A stretch of DNA of 64,000 nt from Thermosediminibacter oceani DSM 16646 (GTDB taxonomy: Bacteria; Bacillota; Thermosediminibacteria; Thermosediminibacterales; Thermosediminibacteraceae): NCBI RefSeq assembly GCF_000144645.1, contig NC_014377.1, forward strand, positions 558,001 through 622,000, given 5' to 3'. The notes beneath the pieces were generated by a model, which saw nothing but the letters and a program-made list of their open reading frames with translations, had not been told where the DNA came from and made no database searches. Of the stretch, positions 45,341 to 53,642 are shown one piece after another (position 1 is the first letter of the stretch; every line of letters starts with the position of its first letter). Both the position numbers and the translations under genes were made by a program.

Positions 45341-45629
45341 TTGAACGTTAAAGAAACGGTAGTAGAAGTTATTAGCGCAGTCGTCCCGATTGCCGTATTG
45401 GTGACGATATTGCAGCTTACGGTAGCCAAACTTCCGACCGAGGTTTTTGTGAATTTCATCGGCGGTGCCGTTTTGGTCATGCTGGGGCTTATCCTTTTTC
45501 TGATCGGAGCTAAGGTGGGTTTTTTGCCCGTAGGAGAAATGATAGGTTCTTCGCTGGTCACGAAGGGCAAACTGTGGCTCATATTGTTTTTCGGGTTTTT
45601 AATAGGTTTTGCCGTGACCATTGCTGAGC
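45341..45629 (+). pseudogene. DUF1538 membrane protein, 5' part, split by IS21 element
   Basis: From TTG 45341 (after AGGGAGGGG) the frame encodes VVPIAVLVTILQLTVAKLPT, GAKVGFLPVGEMIGSS and FGFLIGFAVTIAE. It is then broken at 45629 by the IS; the reading frame continues 13 codons at most into the element. Joining 45629 to 48112, with one copy of the 7-bp duplication removed, gives 690 nt, exactly 230 codons with AEPDVQVLAAQVD across the join. The intact gene thus encoded a 229-residue DUF1538 protein with about six membrane spans, the partner of the second DUF1538 gene downstream. Confidence 0.9.
45623..45629 (+). repeat. IS target-site duplication, left copy
   Basis: GCTGAGC at 45623-45629 is repeated exactly at 48105-48111 on the other side of the element. 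Removing one copy restores the DUF1538 frame. Confidence 0.92.
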
Positions 45630-45784
45630 TGTTTATTGCATAATTAAAATGGACAGAGTTGCAAAATAAAATCCCCACTTTTGCAACTCAAAAATCCCCA
45701 AATTTGCAAAGGTCATTGCAGGCACCCCTAAAAACCTTTACCCTTGTAGTTAGGGAAATCTTAACTGCAAGGGAGGATTGGAGG

Positions 45785-47308
45785 ATGCTCACAATGACCC
45801 ATATTGATAATATCAGAAAAGCGTTCTTTATGAAAGGGCAAAATATCAGCGAGATAGCCCGGGAATTCCAAAAAGACCGAAAAACTATACGCAAGTATAT
45901 TTATCAAGAAGACTGGAACACCAGGGTTAAAGTTGAAGAAGTTAAACATACCTTCCCAAAACTCGACCCTTTCAAGGCGGATATAGATCAGTGGCTTGAA
46001 GAAGATAAAAAAGCTCGCAAAAAGCAGAGGCATACCGCCAAAAGGATTTATGACAGGCTCTGTGAAAAATACCAAGATAAGTTTAACTGTTCTTACCGCA
46101 CCGTAGCAGGCTACGTAGCCATGAGAAAAAAAGAATTGTACCAGGACAACTCATGTCGTCTGCCGCTGGAACATATCCCGGGTGAAGCGCAGGTGGATTT
46201 CGGTGAGGCAGACTTTTACGAAAACGGGACGCTGCATCACGGATTTTATCTGAACCTGTCGTTTCCCTACAGTAACGTAGGATATACCCAGCTTTTCAAG
46301 GGAGAAAACCAGGAATGCCTGTTTCAGGGACTTAAGGACATATTTGAACACTTGGGGGGAGTACCCCGTAAGCTATGGTTTGATAACGCCAGCACTATCG
46401 TGAAACTCTCGAAAAATGGAGAGCGCAAACTAACCGACGCCTTCCTGAGGTTCAAGCAGCACTATGGTTTTGAAGCGGTATTCTGTAACCCTGCTTCCGG
46501 CCATGAAAAGGGTAATGTGGAAAACAAGGTGGGATACCACCGGCGCAACTTCCTTGTCCCGGTCCCCAGGTTTGAAAAGCTGGAGGATTTTAACCGCGAA
46601 CTTTTACGATTGTGCGACCGGGACATGCACCGCGAACACTACCGGAAGGAGGCATCCATAGCCGAACTTTTTAATGAAGACCGTAAGGCTCTGCTTGAGC
46701 TGCCTACCGTTCCTTACGAGGTAGCCGGTTACATAACAGTCAAAACCAACGCCTACGCCAAATTCAGCTTGAACGGTGGAAAGCACCTATACTCTACCGC
46801 CCCCAAATACGCCAACAGCCGGGTGCTTGTAAAGATAACAGCCCATGAGGTCATACCGCTGGATGAGAGCCACCGGGAAATCGTGCGCCACCGGCGGCTT
46901 TACGGGGACAACAAGCAAGAAAGCATGGACTGGCTGCCATATCTTACCCAGCTTTCCCGCTGTCCGGGAGCCCTTAAGTATTCGGGAATATACAGCATGC
47001 TGCCGGACCCACTCCGGGAATACCTCGACGGCTTAAGCAAAAGTGAGCGCGGCAAAGCGCTCAAGGCTTTGGCTGTGCTTTGTACCAAAAGCAGTTTTGA
47101 ACAGGCTGTGAACGCTGTAGCCGAGGCTCTCCTTTACGGAGTGCAGGATTTAGACAGCCTCGTAGCCATCCATAACAGGATAACGGGTATAACCCCGCAG
47201 TTGGAGCCGGTAAAGATTCCGGAAGGGGTTCCTGAACTCACTGCATTCCGCTTCAATGCAGAAGACTATGACAAAGCCTTTCTGAAAGGCGGTGCCAATT
47301 TATGCTGA
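45785..47308 (+). CDS. istA: IS21-family transposase IstA
   Basis: The 507-residue transposase starts at ATG 45785, 8 nt after GGGAGG; the frame is open further upstream but without a site. The N-terminus has an HTH (QNISEIAREFQKDRKTIRKY). The integrase core has the DDE triad: Asp near 138 (EAQVDFGEADF), Asp near 199 (KLWFDNASTIV) and Glu near 245 (GHEKGNVENKVG). The C-terminal region contains YSTAPKYANSRVLVKITAHE. It overlaps istB by 7 nt. Confidence 0.95.
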   Translation: MLTMTHIDNIRKAFFMKGQNISEIAREFQKDRKTIRKYIYQEDWNTRVKVEEVKHTFPKLDPFKADIDQWLEEDKKARKKQRHTAKRIYDRLCEKYQDKFNCSYRTVAGYVAMRKKELYQDNSCRLPLEHIPGEAQVDFGEADFYENGTLHHGFYLNLSFPYSNVGYTQLFKGENQECLFQGLKDIFEHLGGVPRKLWFDNASTIVKLSKNGERKLTDAFLRFKQHYGFEAVFCNPASGHEKGNVENKVGYHRRNFLVPVPRFEKLEDFNRELLRLCDRDMHREHYRKEASIAELFNEDRKALLELPTVPYEVAGYITVKTNAYAKFSLNGGKHLYSTAPKYANSRVLVKITAHEVIPLDESHREIVRHRRLYGDNKQESMDWLPYLTQLSRCPGALKYSGIYSMLPDPLREYLDGLSKSERGKALKALAVLCTKSSFEQAVNAVAEALLYGVQDLDSLVAIHNRITGITPQLEPVKIPEGVPELTAFRFNAEDYDKAFLKGGANLC

Positions 47309-48033
47309 AGGACGAAATCGCCGCCTGCTGTAAAGCATTAAAACTCAGCCGCAATCTAGTGGAAAACTGCGACAAGATCGAGGCTCAAAGCCATGAAGAA
47401 TACCTGCTGAAGCTGCTAAGATTAGAACTGGAGCACAGAGACGCAAGCCGAAAGGACAGGCTTTTGAAAAATGCGGGCTTTTACACGATAAAGACCTTTG
47501 CCGGCTACATATTCGATGAAATCAAACTCCCGCAGGGGCTTACACCGCAGGACCTAAAAGATTGCAAATTTCTCGAAGAAAAGAAAAACCTGATCCTTTA
47601 CGGCAACGTGGGAACCGGCAAAACCCATCTTGCCACCGCCATCGGTGTGGAGGCCTGTAAAAAAGGCTACAACGTAAAGTTTTTCCGCACTGCAGCGCTG
47701 GTAAACCGGCTGGTGGAAGCCCGGAAGGGAGGTGAACTTTCCGGGTTACTGAAACAGCTTTCCAAACCAGATCTTCTGATCTGCGACGAATGGGGCTATG
47801 TTCCTTTGGACCGCGAAGGAGCGCAGCTACTTTTTCAGGTGATTTCGGACTGCTATGAACGTCGCAGTGTAGTAATTACCACTAACCTGGAATTCAGCCG
47901 CTGGGCGAGCATTTTCTACGATGAGCAGATGACAGCAGCAATGATTGACCGGCTAATACACCACAGTTACCTATTGATCTTTGATGGTCAAAGCTACCGG
48001 ATGAGGCAATCACTCATGAGGCAATTAAGTTAA
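47302..48033 (+). CDS. istB: IS21-family helper ATPase IstB
   Basis: The 243-residue AAA+ ATPase starts at ATG 47302 inside the end of istA. It has Walker A NLILYGNVGTGKTHLATAIG, Walker B PDLLICDEWGYVPLDREGAQ and sensor VVITTNLEFSRW. A DnaC-like fold clamps target DNA and activates IstA. Length is slightly below the E. coli IstB (about 265). Confidence 0.95.
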   Translation: MLKDEIAACCKALKLSRNLVENCDKIEAQSHEEYLLKLLRLELEHRDASRKDRLLKNAGFYTIKTFAGYIFDEIKLPQGLTPQDLKDCKFLEEKKNLILYGNVGTGKTHLATAIGVEACKKGYNVKFFRTAALVNRLVEARKGGELSGLLKQLSKPDLLICDEWGYVPLDREGAQLLFQVISDCYERRSVVITTNLEFSRWASIFYDEQMTAAMIDRLIHHSYLLIFDGQSYRMRQSLMRQLS

Positions 48034-48104
48034 CATAAAAATTCCCCACCGGTGCCTGGGGAAAAACCTTTGCAAAAATGGGGAATTTCCTCTTGCAAAA
48101 AACA

Positions 48105-48111
48105 GCTGAGC
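48105..48111 (+). repeat. IS target-site duplication, right copy
   Basis: GCTGAGC, identical to 45623-45629. Confidence 0.92.
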
Positions 48112-48512
48112 CCGATGTTCAGGTATTGGCAGCACAGGTTGATGCGGTCTCGGACGGAGCCATAAATAAGTTCATCATCGTAACGGCGGTGGCGTGTGGA
48201 GTGGGCATTTTCGTCTCTTTAGCCCTGCTTCGCATATTCTTAAGAATCCCAATCAATTATTTGCTGGTTATCGGATACGCTTTAGTATTTTTGCTGGCGC
48301 TGGTTACTGCACCGGAATTCGTAGCCGTATCCTTCGATGCCGGAGGAGTAACCACAGGTCCCATGACGGTGCCGTTTATACTCGCCCTCGGGGTGGGTGT
48401 GGCTTCGGTCACCGGGAAAAGGACATCGTCCAGCGATAGCTTTGGATTGATCGCCTTGGCATCCATAGGGCCGATTTTGGCAGTTTTATTATTGGGGGTG
48501 TTTTACAAATGA
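48112..48512 (+). pseudogene. DUF1538 membrane protein, 3' part, split by IS21 element
   Basis: This is the remainder of the interrupted gene: PDVQVLAAQVDAVSDGAINK, GYALVFLLALVTAPEFVAVS, FDAGGVTTGPMTVPFILALG and IGPILAVLLLGVFYK. The FDAGGxxTGPMTVxFIL motif is the family hallmark and is also in the second copy. The frame is open back into the IS, so an out-of-context start could make a shortened product, but a normal protein cannot be made while the IS is present. Confidence 0.9.
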
Positions 48513-49267
48513 TAAGCGCACTGTTTGAAGGTTTTTCCGCTGTATTGAGGGATGTTGCCGTCGCATTGACCCCCCTCGTCGTCGTGTTTGTCTTTTTTCA
48601 AATTTTTTTGTTAAAACTGCCGAAACGGCATTTAATAAAAATAGTCAAAGGGATCATACTGACGTTTGCGGGGCTTGCTCTATTCCTGCAGGGAGTGCAC
48701 GTTGGTTTCTTACCCGTAGGCGAATTGATGGGTATGACTATAGGCTCGTTAGATTATAACTGGATTTTAATCCCTATTGGGTTTCTGATGGGATTCGCAG
48801 TTATTATGGCCGAGCCTGCAGTACAGGTTCTAGCCATAGAAGTTGAAAAAGCTTCCAGCGGGCATATTAATAAAAAAATAATGATTTATACCTTATGTAT
48901 TGGCGTAGCATTTTCCGTTGCGCTGTCGATGATTAGAGTCCTTACAGGAATTTCACTCTGGTATTTTATCGTACCGGGATATATAATAGCATTGTTGATG
49001 ACAAAATATGTCTCTTCCGAGTTTGTAGCTATCGCCTTTGATGCGGGAGGCGCGGCAACGGGGCCGATGACGGTCACGTTTATATTGTCGATGACCGTTG
49101 GAGTGGCAAAGCAGCTCGAAGGCAGAAATCCTCTGATGGATGGGTTCGGAATGGTTTCCCTTGTGGCTTTGACACCGATACTTTCAATTCTTATCCTTGG
49201 GGTTTTATACAGCAGGAAGGAGAAGCTCGGTGATGAAAGGCGGACTTACAGTGGACGAGAGTTTTAA
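48509..49267 (+). CDS. DUF1538 membrane protein, intact second copy
   Basis: The 252-residue protein starts at ATG 48509, overlapping the previous stop (ATGA). It has about six membrane spans and the family pattern: HVGFLPVGELMGMTIGS, GFAVIMAEPAVQVLAIEVEK, ASSGHINKKIMIYTLCIGVA, VAIAFDAGGAATGPMTVTFI and LVALTPILSILILGVLYS. In many bacteria two DUF1538 halves are fused in one protein of about 500 residues; here they are separate genes. Function is unknown; the shape and conserved Glu, Asp and Gly-rich motifs suggest a transporter or channel. The next gene, a PII-like regulator, overlaps it. Confidence 0.9.
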   Translation: MISALFEGFSAVLRDVAVALTPLVVVFVFFQIFLLKLPKRHLIKIVKGIILTFAGLALFLQGVHVGFLPVGELMGMTIGSLDYNWILIPIGFLMGFAVIMAEPAVQVLAIEVEKASSGHINKKIMIYTLCIGVAFSVALSMIRVLTGISLWYFIVPGYIIALLMTKYVSSEFVAIAFDAGGAATGPMTVTFILSMTVGVAKQLEGRNPLMDGFGMVSLVALTPILSILILGVLYSRKEKLGDERRTYSGREF

Positions 49268-49604
49268 ACTCATCGTAACAATTGTAAATAAGGGTAAAGC
49301 AAGCAAGGTGGTTGGAGCCAGCAAAAGGGCTGGAGCTGAAGGTGGGACGATCCTTTTTGGAAGGGGGACCGCCAAAAGGTCTTTTCTTGATTTTCTGGGG
49401 ATAAATTTTGCGCCGGAAAAGGAAATCATACTTACCCTTGTCAAAGAGGATAAGGTGAAAGATGTCCTGCAAGCGATTACGGATGAGGTAAAGCTGAATA
49501 AGCCTGGAAACGGGATAGGCTTTGTTATAAATATTAAAGAACTCCTAGGGGTTATTCATTTGTTGAAAAATGCAGGAGGGAATTTAAATGATAGAGGATT
49601 GTAA
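49233..49604 (+). CDS. PII-like signalling protein, copy 1
   Basis: The 123-residue protein starts at ATG 49233, about 9 nt after AGGAGAAG, overlapping the DUF1538 gene by 35 nt. It has a PII fold: FKLIVTIVNKGKASKVVGAS, then AGAEGGTILFGRGTAKR, then EKEIILTLVKEDKVKDVLQA and PGNGIGFVINIKELLGVIHL. The T-loop between FGRGT and APEKE is short and has no Tyr51-type modification site. The B-loop-like NKPGNGIGF is present. The genomic link indicates control of the DUF1538 membrane proteins by a small ligand. Confidence 0.88.
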   Translation: MKGGLTVDESFKLIVTIVNKGKASKVVGASKRAGAEGGTILFGRGTAKRSFLDFLGINFAPEKEIILTLVKEDKVKDVLQAITDEVKLNKPGNGIGFVINIKELLGVIHLLKNAGGNLNDRGL

Positions 49605-49926
49605 TATTAAATTTGACCTAATTGTAACGATTGTAAATAAAGGCTTTGCGGAAGAAGTGGTTGAAGCCGCAAAAAAGGCCGGAGCCGAGGGCGGTACAAT
49701 CATAGACGGGCGTGGAACGGGAATACATGAAAATGCAAAGCTGTTCGGCATACCGATCGAGCCGGAAAAAGAAATAGTTTTAACCTTGATTGACAGGACA
49801 AAAACGGAAAAGGTTTTGGAAGCTATTTCAAACGCTGCAGAGCTTGACAAGCCGGGCAAGGGTATAGCATTTGTTCTGGAAGTCGAAAAAACAGTAGGAA
49901 TATACCATCTGATAAATAAAGGTTAG
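49588..49926 (+). CDS. PII-like signalling protein, copy 2
   Basis: The 112-residue protein starts at ATG 49588, overlapping the previous gene by 17 nt, with GGAGGGAA upstream. It is a paralogue of copy 1: FDLIVTIVNKGFAEEVVEAA, GAEGGTIIDGRGTGIHENAK, PEKEIVLTLIDRTKTEKVLE and KPGKGIAFVLEVEKTVGIYH. The two may form homotrimers or heterotrimers. Two PII-like proteins matching two DUF1538 subunits suggest a paired design. Confidence 0.88.
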   Translation: MIEDCNIKFDLIVTIVNKGFAEEVVEAAKKAGAEGGTIIDGRGTGIHENAKLFGIPIEPEKEIVLTLIDRTKTEKVLEAISNAAELDKPGKGIAFVLEVEKTVGIYHLINKG

Positions 49927-49934
49927 AACGTTAT

Positions 49935-49963
49935 TTGACATTAGATTCTTTTGCTGTTATAAT
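49935..49963 (+). promoter_or_regulatory. Consensus sigma-A promoter upstream of the riboswitch
   Basis: TTGACA (49935-49940), 17-nt spacer, TATAAT (49958-49963). The expected start at about 49970 lies just before the riboswitch P1 stem. Confidence 0.85.
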
Positions 49964-49985
49964 ATAAGGCAAATTAAATAAAGTT

Positions 49986-50169
49986 GCTATAATCTAAATC
50001 GCTGAGTTCTTTCTATGGCCTAGCCATAGAAAGAAGCGGGGGACCCAACTTTATGGGGTGAATCTCCTTCTTAAGAGGGGCAAAACCCGTATTAAGAAGG
50101 GGTAGGGTTACCTCTTCAACCCGAACCCGTCAGCTAACCTCGTAAGCGTACCGAGAGGAGATTTATAGC
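49986..50169 (+). promoter_or_regulatory. c-di-AMP riboswitch (ydaO-yuaA class)
   Basis: The conserved core is clear: AATCGCTGA...AAGCGGGGGACCCA with GGGGTGAATCTCC, and CCCGAACCCGTCAGCTAACC followed by TCGTAAGCG and GAGAGGAG. P1 pairs GCTATAATCT (49986-49995) with AGATTTATAGC (50159-50169). The 3' side of P1 contains ATAGCTT (50165-50171), which can also pair with AAGCTAT (50188-50194), the 5' arm of the terminator. Ligand-stabilised P1 therefore frees the terminator, and expression should be off at high c-di-AMP. It controls the asparagine-synthase-like gene. Confidence 0.93.
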
Positions 50170-50184
50170 TTAAATACTATTGCT

Positions 50185-50219
50185 AAAAAGCTATGAGTCT
50201 TCATAGCTTTTTATTTTTC
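50185..50219 (+). terminator. Riboswitch expression-platform terminator
   Basis: AAAAAGCTATG (50185-50195) pairs with CATAGCTTTTT (50202-50212) over a 6-nt loop, followed by ATTTTT. It ends 16 nt before the start codon of the controlled gene. Confidence 0.92.
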
Positions 50220-50235
50220 TTCCGGAGGTGGTGTC

Positions 50236-51732
50236 ATGTACAGGATAGCCGGGTGTCTGGGTGGTTGCGATACCGAAAAAGTGGACAATATGCTGGAAGG
50301 AATGTTAAAAGAGGGTTCTAATCAAAAAAAGTTATATACATCGAATAATGTTACTTTGGGCTGCAATAAATCAGCAATGAAAGATTTAGGCGACTTTAAT
50401 CAACCCTTGTTCAACGAAGATCATACTATAGCCTTAGTTTTTGACGGAGAAATATATAATTACGATGAACTGAAAGCGTGGCTTTTGAGCAGAGGCCATG
50501 AATTTAAAACGGATTACGACGGTGAAGTATTGATCCATCTTTATGAAGAATTGGGCTCCGATATGGTGTCCAAACTTGATGGTGTATTTGCTTTTGCGAT
50601 ATCGGGTCCGGAGGGTTTTTTTGCAGCCAGAGATGTGTTGGGAGCTAGGCCCTTGTATTACAGTGAAGACAAGAGTGGAAAAATGTATTTTGCTTCTGAA
50701 ATAAAAGCCTTATTGAATATAGCTGAAAATATAAGGGAATTTCCGAATGGTTATTATTATACCGATAAAGAGGGCTTTTTTCAGTATGATAGGATTTGTG
50801 CCGCAGAAGTAAAAGAATCGAATTTAGAAAAACTGGTGGATGATTTAGACAGGAGATTAAATGAAGCCGTGAAGAAAAGGCTGATGTCGGACAAACCCGT
50901 AGGTGTGTTTCTAAGCGGCGGCCTTGATTCCAGCCTTATCGCTGCAATTACAAGACAATACGTCAAAGGAGAGCTTCACTCTTTTGCGGTGGGCGTAAAA
51001 GGTTCCGATGATCTATATTATTCGCAAATGGTTTCCGATTTCTTGGGTACAACTCACCATGTTGAAGAATATAGTAAAGAAGATGTCATAGATATTTTGC
51101 CGGACGTGATCTACCATTTAGAGTCCTTTGATCCCGCCCTGGTAAGGGGCTCGGTGGCGACGTATTTTGCCGCCCGCCTTGCCAGCCGGTACGTGCAGGT
51201 AGTTTTAATCGGCGAGGGCGCCGATGAACTTTTTGGCGGATACGAATATCTAAAGGCGCCTTCAGTTACTAATTTAACGGAGGAACTCCTTACTTTGATA
51301 AACAGCCTGCATAATACGGGGTTTCAAAGAGTAGAACGCATCACCGCAGCCCACTCGATTAAAGCAAGGGCGCCGTTCCTCGACAGGGAAGTTATAAATT
51401 ACGCTTTTTCTCTAGATGAAAAGTATAAGATATATGGAGAAGAAAAGATTGAAAAGTGGATTGTGCGCAAAGTTGCTGAAAGGTACCTGCCTAAAGAGAT
51501 AGCATGGAGAAAGAAGGCCAAATTTGCACACGGAACGGGAACCAGCGGAATATTATCCGAATGGGTAAAAAACGATGAAGTCGTGAAAGAGGCGATAGAT
51601 ACTGATTTAGCCAAAATACCCAGCCGGGAAGAAAGGGTTTACTTCAGCATCTTTAAAAAGCATTTCCCTAATTTGAAAAACTTGGAGTTAATAGGAAGGA
51701 CAAGAAGTATAGTTCCTAAAGAAATAGTCTAG
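50236..51732 (+). CDS. Asparagine-synthase-like protein lacking the Cys2 nucleophile
   Basis: The 498-residue protein starts at ATG 50236, after CCGGAGGTGGTG. Residues 1-190 form the class II glutaminase-like domain (PLFNEDHTIALVFDGEIYNY, ALVFDGEIYNYDELKAWLLS, LDGVFAFAISG, FFAARDVLGARPLYY). Normal AsnB starts MCGI, with Cys2 as nucleophile; here the start is MYRIAGCLGG, so glutamine hydrolysis should fail. The synthase domain has the PP-loop VFLSGGLDSSLIAA near 226, LIGEGADELFGGYEYL and RAPFLDREVINYAFSL. It may use free ammonia or amidate something other than aspartate. It is under c-di-AMP riboswitch control. Confidence 0.9.
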   Translation: MYRIAGCLGGCDTEKVDNMLEGMLKEGSNQKKLYTSNNVTLGCNKSAMKDLGDFNQPLFNEDHTIALVFDGEIYNYDELKAWLLSRGHEFKTDYDGEVLIHLYEELGSDMVSKLDGVFAFAISGPEGFFAARDVLGARPLYYSEDKSGKMYFASEIKALLNIAENIREFPNGYYYTDKEGFFQYDRICAAEVKESNLEKLVDDLDRRLNEAVKKRLMSDKPVGVFLSGGLDSSLIAAITRQYVKGELHSFAVGVKGSDDLYYSQMVSDFLGTTHHVEEYSKEDVIDILPDVIYHLESFDPALVRGSVATYFAARLASRYVQVVLIGEGADELFGGYEYLKAPSVTNLTEELLTLINSLHNTGFQRVERITAAHSIKARAPFLDREVINYAFSLDEKYKIYGEEKIEKWIVRKVAERYLPKEIAWRKKAKFAHGTGTSGILSEWVKNDEVVKEAIDTDLAKIPSREERVYFSIFKKHFPNLKNLELIGRTRSIVPKEIV

Positions 51733-51910: not shown

Positions 51911-51951
51911 TAAATTTTCTTTTAGCGCTTTAAAAAAAAGGGTGATTCGCC

Positions 51952-52823: not shown

Positions 52824-53642
52824 ATGGAATTTAATGTAAAGGAGAAGGTGAAGGAATATTATAGTAATATAGCTAAAAAAGCGGAGAAGGGTTCGAAGTC
52901 TAGCTGTTGTTCCTGCGGTTCATCTTGCTGCGGAGATGTAGATGATATTACCTTTTATAATGAAGAGGATTTAAAAGGATTACCCGAAGAAGCGGTTAAT
53001 CTTTCATTGGGGTGTGCAAATCCCATAGTTTTAGCCGATCTAAAGGAAGGCGAGACGGTTCTTGACTTAGGTAGCGGAGGAGGAATAGACGTCCTAATTG
53101 CCTCAAAATATGTTGGCGATACCGGAAAAGTATACGGGCTCGATATGACCGATGAAATGTTAGCTCTTGCAAATAAGAACAAGGAGAAGATGGGAGTAAC
53201 CAACGTAGAATTTATAAAGGGATATATAGAAGATATTCCCTTGGGTGACGAAACGGTAGATGTTATAATATCCAACTGCGTTATCAACCTCTGCGAAGAT
53301 AAGGAAAAGGCATTGAAGGAGGCCTACAGGGTATTAAAGAAAGGCGGAAGGCTGGCTATAGCTGACATCGTCGCTTTGAAGGATGTTCCCGAAGATATAA
53401 AAAAGCAGGTGGAACTTTGGGCCGGATGCATAGCCGGAACAATTAAAATTGAAGAGTATAGAGAAATACTGCAAAAGGTAGGATTTAAGAATATAGAGAT
53501 TGATCCCGTCCATATATATACAAAGGATATAATCAAAGAATTATTGATTGATAAAAAAGGAATTATGGAATTAGTGAAGGAAATAGATTTGAATTCAGTG
53601 GACGGTGCTTTCGCCGGTGCCTATATAAAGGCCTTCAAATAG
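52824..53642 (+). CDS. arsM: Arsenite S-adenosylmethionine methyltransferase
   Basis: The 272-residue protein starts at ATG 52824 after AAAGGGG. It methylates As(III) with SAM. Markers are an N-terminal Cys cluster (SSCCSCGSSCCGD), LGCANPIVLADLKEGETVLD, the SAM loop LDLGSGGGIDVLIASKYVG, YGLDMTDEMLALANKNK, and the arsenic-binding cysteines in NCVINLCEDK and WAGCIAGTI. The Cys-rich N-terminus is typical of ArsM. It is followed by an ArsN-type acetyltransferase gene with a 12-nt gap. Confidence 0.93.
   Translation: MEFNVKEKVKEYYSNIAKKAEKGSKSSCCSCGSSCCGDVDDITFYNEEDLKGLPEEAVNLSLGCANPIVLADLKEGETVLDLGSGGGIDVLIASKYVGDTGKVYGLDMTDEMLALANKNKEKMGVTNVEFIKGYIEDIPLGDETVDVIISNCVINLCEDKEKALKEAYRVLKKGGRLAIADIVALKDVPEDIKKQVELWAGCIAGTIKIEEYREILQKVGFKNIEIDPVHIYTKDIIKELLIDKKGIMELVKEIDLNSVDGAFAGAYIKAFK

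Follow-up and report, generated by a model that had tools for sequence, protein, structure and literature searches.

Introduction

The locus described here raises the question of why a riboswitch for cyclic di-AMP (c-di-AMP) should stand in front of a gene for an asparagine-synthase-like protein. c-di-AMP is known for its control of the uptake of potassium and ready-made osmolytes, and of wall hydrolases. The window, by which we mean the whole 64,000-nucleotide stretch of DNA analysed, comes from Thermosediminibacter oceani DSM 16646 (contig NC_014377.1, positions 558,001 to 622,000), the genome of which is a single contig of 2,280,035 bp. The answer we lean towards is that the locus works by itself as an OFF switch, in a pathway repressed by c-di-AMP, and acts on the ligase of a probable three-enzyme osmolyte set. 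The riboswitch belongs to a known class; what appears to be new is its target and the conserved three-gene set.

The leader RNA

The features of the locus, in window coordinates, are as follows.

48509 to 49267, plus strand: DUF1538 gene for a UmpA/UmpB-like cation/proton antiporter subunit (context, outside the switched unit)
49197 to 49604: second PII-like open reading frame, upstream of the promoter
49588 to 49926, plus strand: PII-like protein, the upstream neighbour, ending just 5′ of the promoter and in synteny with the sister species
49935 to 49963, plus strand: sigma-70 promoter, TTGACA-17-TATAAT, matching 12/12 consensus positions, with TG before the -10
49986 to 49995, plus strand: 5′ strand of the P1 helix, GCTATAATCT, from the minimum-energy fold
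49990 to 50162, plus strand: ydaO (c-di-AMP riboswitch) aptamer, RF00379, 102.1 bits against a gathering threshold of 38, E 4e-23
50159 to 50169, plus strand: 3′ strand of P1, AGATTTATAGC, from the minimum-energy fold, overlapping the antiterminator 5′ strand
50163 to 50171, plus strand: antiterminator 5′ strand, TTATAGCTT, whose partner is the terminator 5′ arm at 50188-50196
50184 to 50213, plus strand: intrinsic terminator hairpin of 13 pairs followed by TTTTTCTT, about -14 kcal/mol at 37 C
50224 to 50228, plus strand: Shine-Dalgarno sequence GGAGG, 7 nt before the ATG
50236 to 51732, plus strand: AsnB-like protein of 498 aa with a lost glutaminase site and an intact synthetase site

The aptamer is the sole Rfam match within the 64 kb window and covers the full model (positions 1-134 of 134), which, with the hairpin at 50184-50213, bears out the original prediction of a complete ydaO aptamer and terminator. 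The interval given in that prediction opens at 49935, which is the first promoter base. The alternative pairing proposed at the same time, ATAGCTT (50165-50171) with AAGCTAT (50188-50194), is present and extends to 9 bp. The expression platform and P1 are mutually exclusive, since the P1 3′ strand is common to this 9-bp antiterminator; at the level of sequence, the overlap supports the terminator-type OFF switch that had been foreseen. Among aligned related leaders, the alternative helix carries one compensatory change: ATAGC/GCTAT in the window leader and in the operons of genomes G395 and G270 is exchanged for ATGG/CCGT in two orthologous asnB leaders.

We infer that this RNA binds c-di-AMP. 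At high c-di-AMP, the aptamer and P1 would be closed and the P1 3′ strand unavailable, so that the terminator would form and the AsnB-like gene would be off. When c-di-AMP is scarce, as expected at low K+ or as external osmolarity rises, the terminator arm would be free to pair with the P1 3′ strand, and transcription would run on into the gene. As isolated helices, the computed terminator is more stable than the antiterminator at each temperature tried (-13.8 versus -7.2 kcal/mol at 37 C, -5.5 versus about -1 kcal/mol at 68 C). Because the terminator is much the stronger in isolation, any switching would be kinetic and decided during transcription.

Like other ydaO/yuaA riboswitches, the window element has a full-length aptamer and a terminator-type platform, and it is one of a small set in its genome. 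The three ydaO elements there precede the window asnB, an opine dehydrogenase/B12-mutase-like gene pair, and a gene for an RlpA-like protein. The difference lies in the AsnB-family target and in the opine dehydrogenase/B12-mutase/AsnB operon of its relatives, as opposed to a transporter or wall hydrolase.

A hairpin resembling the window terminator is found 3′ of the aptamer in most ydaO units of the order that do not serve RlpA-like genes. In eight RlpA-like units of the same order (L046, L162, L138, L137, L153, L150, L141 and L157), the gene starts 2-3 nt past the aptamer match and no clear terminator is seen, which suggests that control is translational, not transcriptional.

The AsnB-like protein

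Both AsnB domains are matched in the window protein (PF00733 at 243 bits, GATase_7 at 118 bits), and it narrowly passes NF006949 (504 bits against a cut-off of 499). The predicted model has a mean pLDDT of 81, and its best fold match is E. coli AsnB (1CT9, TM 0.83). Profiles and predicted fold thus agree with the earlier call of an AsnB relative downstream of the switch. E. coli AsnB and human ASNS are the closest solved relatives and share with the window protein the two-domain fold, the PP-loop and the synthetase acid cluster.

The window protein differs from these relatives chiefly in its glutaminase half. Cys1 of E. coli AsnB is replaced by Tyr (Tyr2), Arg49 by Lys (Lys45) and Asn74 by Asp (Asp70); of the Cys1/Arg49/Asn74/Asp98 set, only the Asp98 equivalent is kept (Asp95). 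The RGPD loop reads EGSN. At the glutaminase interface, Glu398 is replaced by Lys; its human counterpart, Glu-414, is described as lying within 5 Å of the glutaminase pocket (PMC6748925). Ser346 is replaced by Ile. Since the glutaminase has lost both its nucleophile and the residues that bind substrate, glutamine-dependent amidation is unlikely for this copy.

The synthetase site is intact, with the PP-loop SGGLDSS and the equivalents of Glu348, Asp351, Glu352 and Lys449 all present. Human Glu-364, which corresponds to Glu348, is needed for activity even with ammonia (PMC6748925). A reading in which Lys376 occupied the Glu348 position, leaving the synthetase dead, was excluded by mapping to the E. 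coli sequence: Glu348 sits in the conserved GEGADE motif, and Lys376 is the interface residue at E. coli position 398.

A Thr-Thr pair that precedes a conserved Arg in the E. coli and human enzymes is missing in the entire clade of the window protein, and Ala-Leu takes its place in the window protein and its closest kin. From sequence, this suggests a substrate other than plain aspartate. The next best fold matches of the model are beta-lactam synthetase and carbapenam synthetase (TM 0.70-0.73). These enzymes are AsnB descendants without a working glutaminase and act on N-carboxyalkyl or related amino acids. The likeness has its bounds: identity is about 20%, and no antibiotic genes lie near the window gene.

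Loss of the glutaminase is also seen elsewhere. The AsnB-like protein of G361 has Ser at position 1, Thr74 and Ala76. A separate clade with a lost glutaminase includes the second, ydaO-linked AsnB copy of G012, with which the glutaminase-dead AsnB proteins of G022, G019 and G045 cluster in the tree; a search upstream of the latter three genes found no ydaO element. AsnB-like proteins of about 480 aa with dead glutaminase sites form a clade at L042, L044, L045 and L016, and the adjoining genes encode an H+-pyrophosphatase (G022) or the transhydrogenase PntAB (G019). Generic AsnB proteins of 33-43% identity were among the matches listed in a scan of the contigs for AsnB relatives; their use was confined to rooting the tree as outgroups and to the structure alignment.

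ydaO-linked gene sets in the order and the phylum

The closest orthologues of the window protein are found in G021 and G012 (59% identity), and in both genomes a ydaO element immediately precedes asnB. The cluster there runs asnB, ogt-like gene, ydaO, opine dehydrogenase, B12-mutase. The three AsnB proteins form one clade (support 100/99).

ydaO elements occur in 21 of the 22 genomes of the order, with 43 above the cut-off. Opine dehydrogenase genes are the most frequent target (20), followed by genes for RlpA-like proteins (8), OpuCA-like ATPases (4), D-Ala-D-Ala-ligase-like ATP-grasp proteins (4), AsnB-like proteins (4) and solute-binding proteins (2); one element lies at a contig end. The solute-binding proteins are of the peptide/nickel ABC-transporter type (L159 and L167, in G018 and G019). 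The ATP-grasp genes that adjoin ydaO (L128, L130, L135 and L145, in G005, G006, G004 and G007) all belong to one genus, which has no AsnB-like gene; the ATP-grasp gene may replace the AsnB step in that genus.

A search for ydaO upstream of AsnB homologues in other genomes had been proposed as a check on the original prediction, and it gave a positive answer. In a sample of 398 genomes drawn from the phylum, counting a ydaO element as linked if it lay within 6 kb upstream on the same strand, ydaO was found upstream of 7 of 42 AsnB-like loci, against about 0.1 expected. The binomial P is about 1e-11 at a generous background rate and is indicative only, as the loci are partly related. For the ydaO searches over 40 genomes, the filters were stricter.

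The B12-mutase-like gene occurs in 85 of the 398 genomes, and the B12 protein in 37 families of the sampled phylum. ydaO lies upstream of 39 of the 83 B12-mutase loci kept for the count (16 families), and the gap between the two mostly fits exactly one dehydrogenase gene. AsnB follows directly 3′ of the B12-mutase in six genomes. In four of them (G395, G270, G361 and G192, from families f69, f135 and f93) it is the third gene of an operon ydaO-opine dehydrogenase-B12-mutase-AsnB; in the other two (G325 and G347), the B12-mutase and AsnB genes are adjacent with no ydaO nearby. AsnB is missing from most genomes with the ydaO-linked dehydrogenase/mutase pair, so it is at best an optional step of that pathway.

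A proposed osmolyte pathway

The operon dehydrogenase matches PDB 1BG6, N-(1-D-carboxyethyl)-L-norvaline dehydrogenase, over its full length (E 2e-117). Going by sequence context, it appears to differ from that enzyme in its c-di-AMP control and its B12-mutase-like partner. At its N-terminus, the B12 protein carries a clear cobalamin-binding domain. The larger C-terminal part bears only a weak likeness to the glutamate-mutase E chain; the catalytic half scores 20 bits against MutE, below the cut-off. A dehydrogenase, a mutase and an ATP-dependent amide ligase under one switch are best read as osmolyte synthesis that is turned on at low c-di-AMP.

We propose that the AsnB-like protein descends from the amide-forming ligase of a conserved c-di-AMP-controlled set of three enzymes: an N-(1-carboxyethyl)-amino-acid (opine) dehydrogenase, a B12-dependent mutase-like enzyme and an AsnB-type ligase. 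The dehydrogenase would join an amino acid to a keto acid, the mutase would rearrange the precursor or the opine, and the ligase would activate a carboxylate with ATP and then amidate it. The product is probably an opine-derived organic osmolyte. In the window species, a ligase that no longer hydrolyses glutamine would draw on free ammonia or a different amine, or close a ring, or else it is fading.

There is a precedent for such a step in the NAGGN system, in which an AsnB-family enzyme (AsnO, TIGR03104) amidates an osmolyte under salt stress. Our proteins are distinct from it, with TIGR03104 scores of 233 and 329 bits against a cut-off of 570 and no dipeptide-forming partner seen. The ydaO targets around this gene include OpuCA-like transporters and RlpA-like proteins, in keeping with the part that c-di-AMP is established to play in the osmotic response (PMC7266159). 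The original prediction had offered a tie between nitrogen use and osmotic status; its osmotic part has indirect support, and the prediction as a whole is partly supported.

It is possible, and we put it forward tentatively, that the set forms an undescribed biosynthetic pathway under c-di-AMP riboswitches, through which Firmicutes that are anaerobic and often thermophilic make compatible solutes of a new class. If so, c-di-AMP would regulate the synthesis of osmolytes as well as their uptake. Conservation of the three-enzyme operon means that the product can be sought in cultured strains. The model also gives a testable role to the opine dehydrogenase/B12-mutase pair, and to AsnB-like ligases that annotation would call 'asparagine synthase' though Asn-tRNA is made another way.

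An AsnB-like target had been called unexpected for ydaO. This holds for the open full-text literature searched, which links neither ydaO nor c-di-AMP to asparagine synthase, opine dehydrogenase or octopine; the founding ydaO gene lists (Block 2010; Nelson 2013) lay outside its scope, and the silence is weak evidence of novelty.

Alternative explanations

The strongest rival is that the ydaO-asnB unit is a relic of a step lost in the genus, its enzyme still expressed, nearly or wholly useless, and encoded by a gene that a stop codon has yet to interrupt. We consider this unlikely, yet serious, given the loss in the sister species and the fast evolution of the window copy. In the sister species (G001), a ydaO relic (L165, G001:C9, 840-980) lies between the PII genes and the equivalent of window position 51934. 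What survives there is the -35, the end of the aptamer (from CTTCAACCCG on), the terminator and the Shine-Dalgarno sequence, together with the flanking PII genes. The -10, most of the aptamer (its 5′ part) and the whole asnB gene have been lost, and no Asn_synthase gene of this kind was found in that species. The relic indicates that the unit was present before the two species diverged and that it can be dispensed with.

The window copy has itself changed quickly, with a branch length of 0.61 against 0.07-0.11 in its sisters. At sites invariant among eleven relatives, it has changed at 13 of 56 in the glutaminase half (single control proteins, 0-5) and 11 of 93 in the synthetase half (controls, 0-13). 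The split of the neighbouring umpA gene by an IS21 element is a further point for decay. Against decay, 498 codons have stayed open despite only 59% identity to the sister proteins, and the predicted model folds well. The PP-loop and Glu348-region residues are all kept and the losses are concentrated on glutaminase function. As far as sequence can tell, the promoter, the aptamer and the terminator are each complete and able to work.

The protein could instead be an ordinary ammonia-dependent asparagine synthetase through which c-di-AMP sets the Asp/Asn balance, and hence the pool of anionic K+ counter-ions. In lactic acid bacteria, aspartate is an osmolyte linked to c-di-AMP. Sequence and fold both place the protein in the AsnB family, its synthetase residues are intact, and it stands alone in the genome, where neither AsnA nor a second comparable Asn_synthase gene was found. 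However, AsnRS is absent from this genome and from the other members of the order tested, and GatB is found. With no AsnRS, no AsnA and a GatB, Asn for translation is expected to be made on the tRNA by GatCAB-type transamidation, and protein synthesis seems not to need the AsnB-like gene. The missing Thr-Thr pair hints at another acid across the clade, and the conserved partners are an opine dehydrogenase and a B12-mutase. We regard this explanation as rather improbable, a little more so than decay.

Control of peptidoglycan amidation by c-di-AMP had been raised at the outset and finds no support. Some AsnB-family proteins do amidate wall precursors, as B. subtilis AsnB and Corynebacterium LtsA do, and one of the other ydaO elements in the genome serves the gene of an RlpA-like protein. 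The window protein, however, groups with AsnB of the E. coli/human type and is separated from the Firmicute AsnB proteins of roughly 620 residues (100/100), in a tree whose members include no biochemically proven wall amidase. A search for wall genes inside the ydaO-AsnB units found none in any; the partners are the dehydrogenase and the mutase, and the glutaminase of the window copy is dead. Wall amidation is therefore very improbable.

That ydaO merely happens to precede an AsnB gene, which might be argued from the many gene types it precedes and from AsnB following only 4 of the 43 elements in the order, is effectively refuted by the recurrence of the pair at seven loci of the phylum draw and in G021 (one clade of these by descent), and we give it almost no weight.

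A probable osmolyte pathway is the reading we retain.

Neighbouring genes

The DUF1538 (UmpA-like) gene upstream of the locus (window 45341-48512) is interrupted by an IS21-type element with istA/istB reading frames at 45659-48033, which leaves flanking pieces at 45341-45643 and 48078-48512. The upstream cation/proton antiporter pair is probably broken in this genome through the split. On the other side, an arsenite methyltransferase-like gene (NF008823, above cut-off) lies at 52824-53642, and its product has a Cys-rich N-terminus, SSCCSCGSSCCG.
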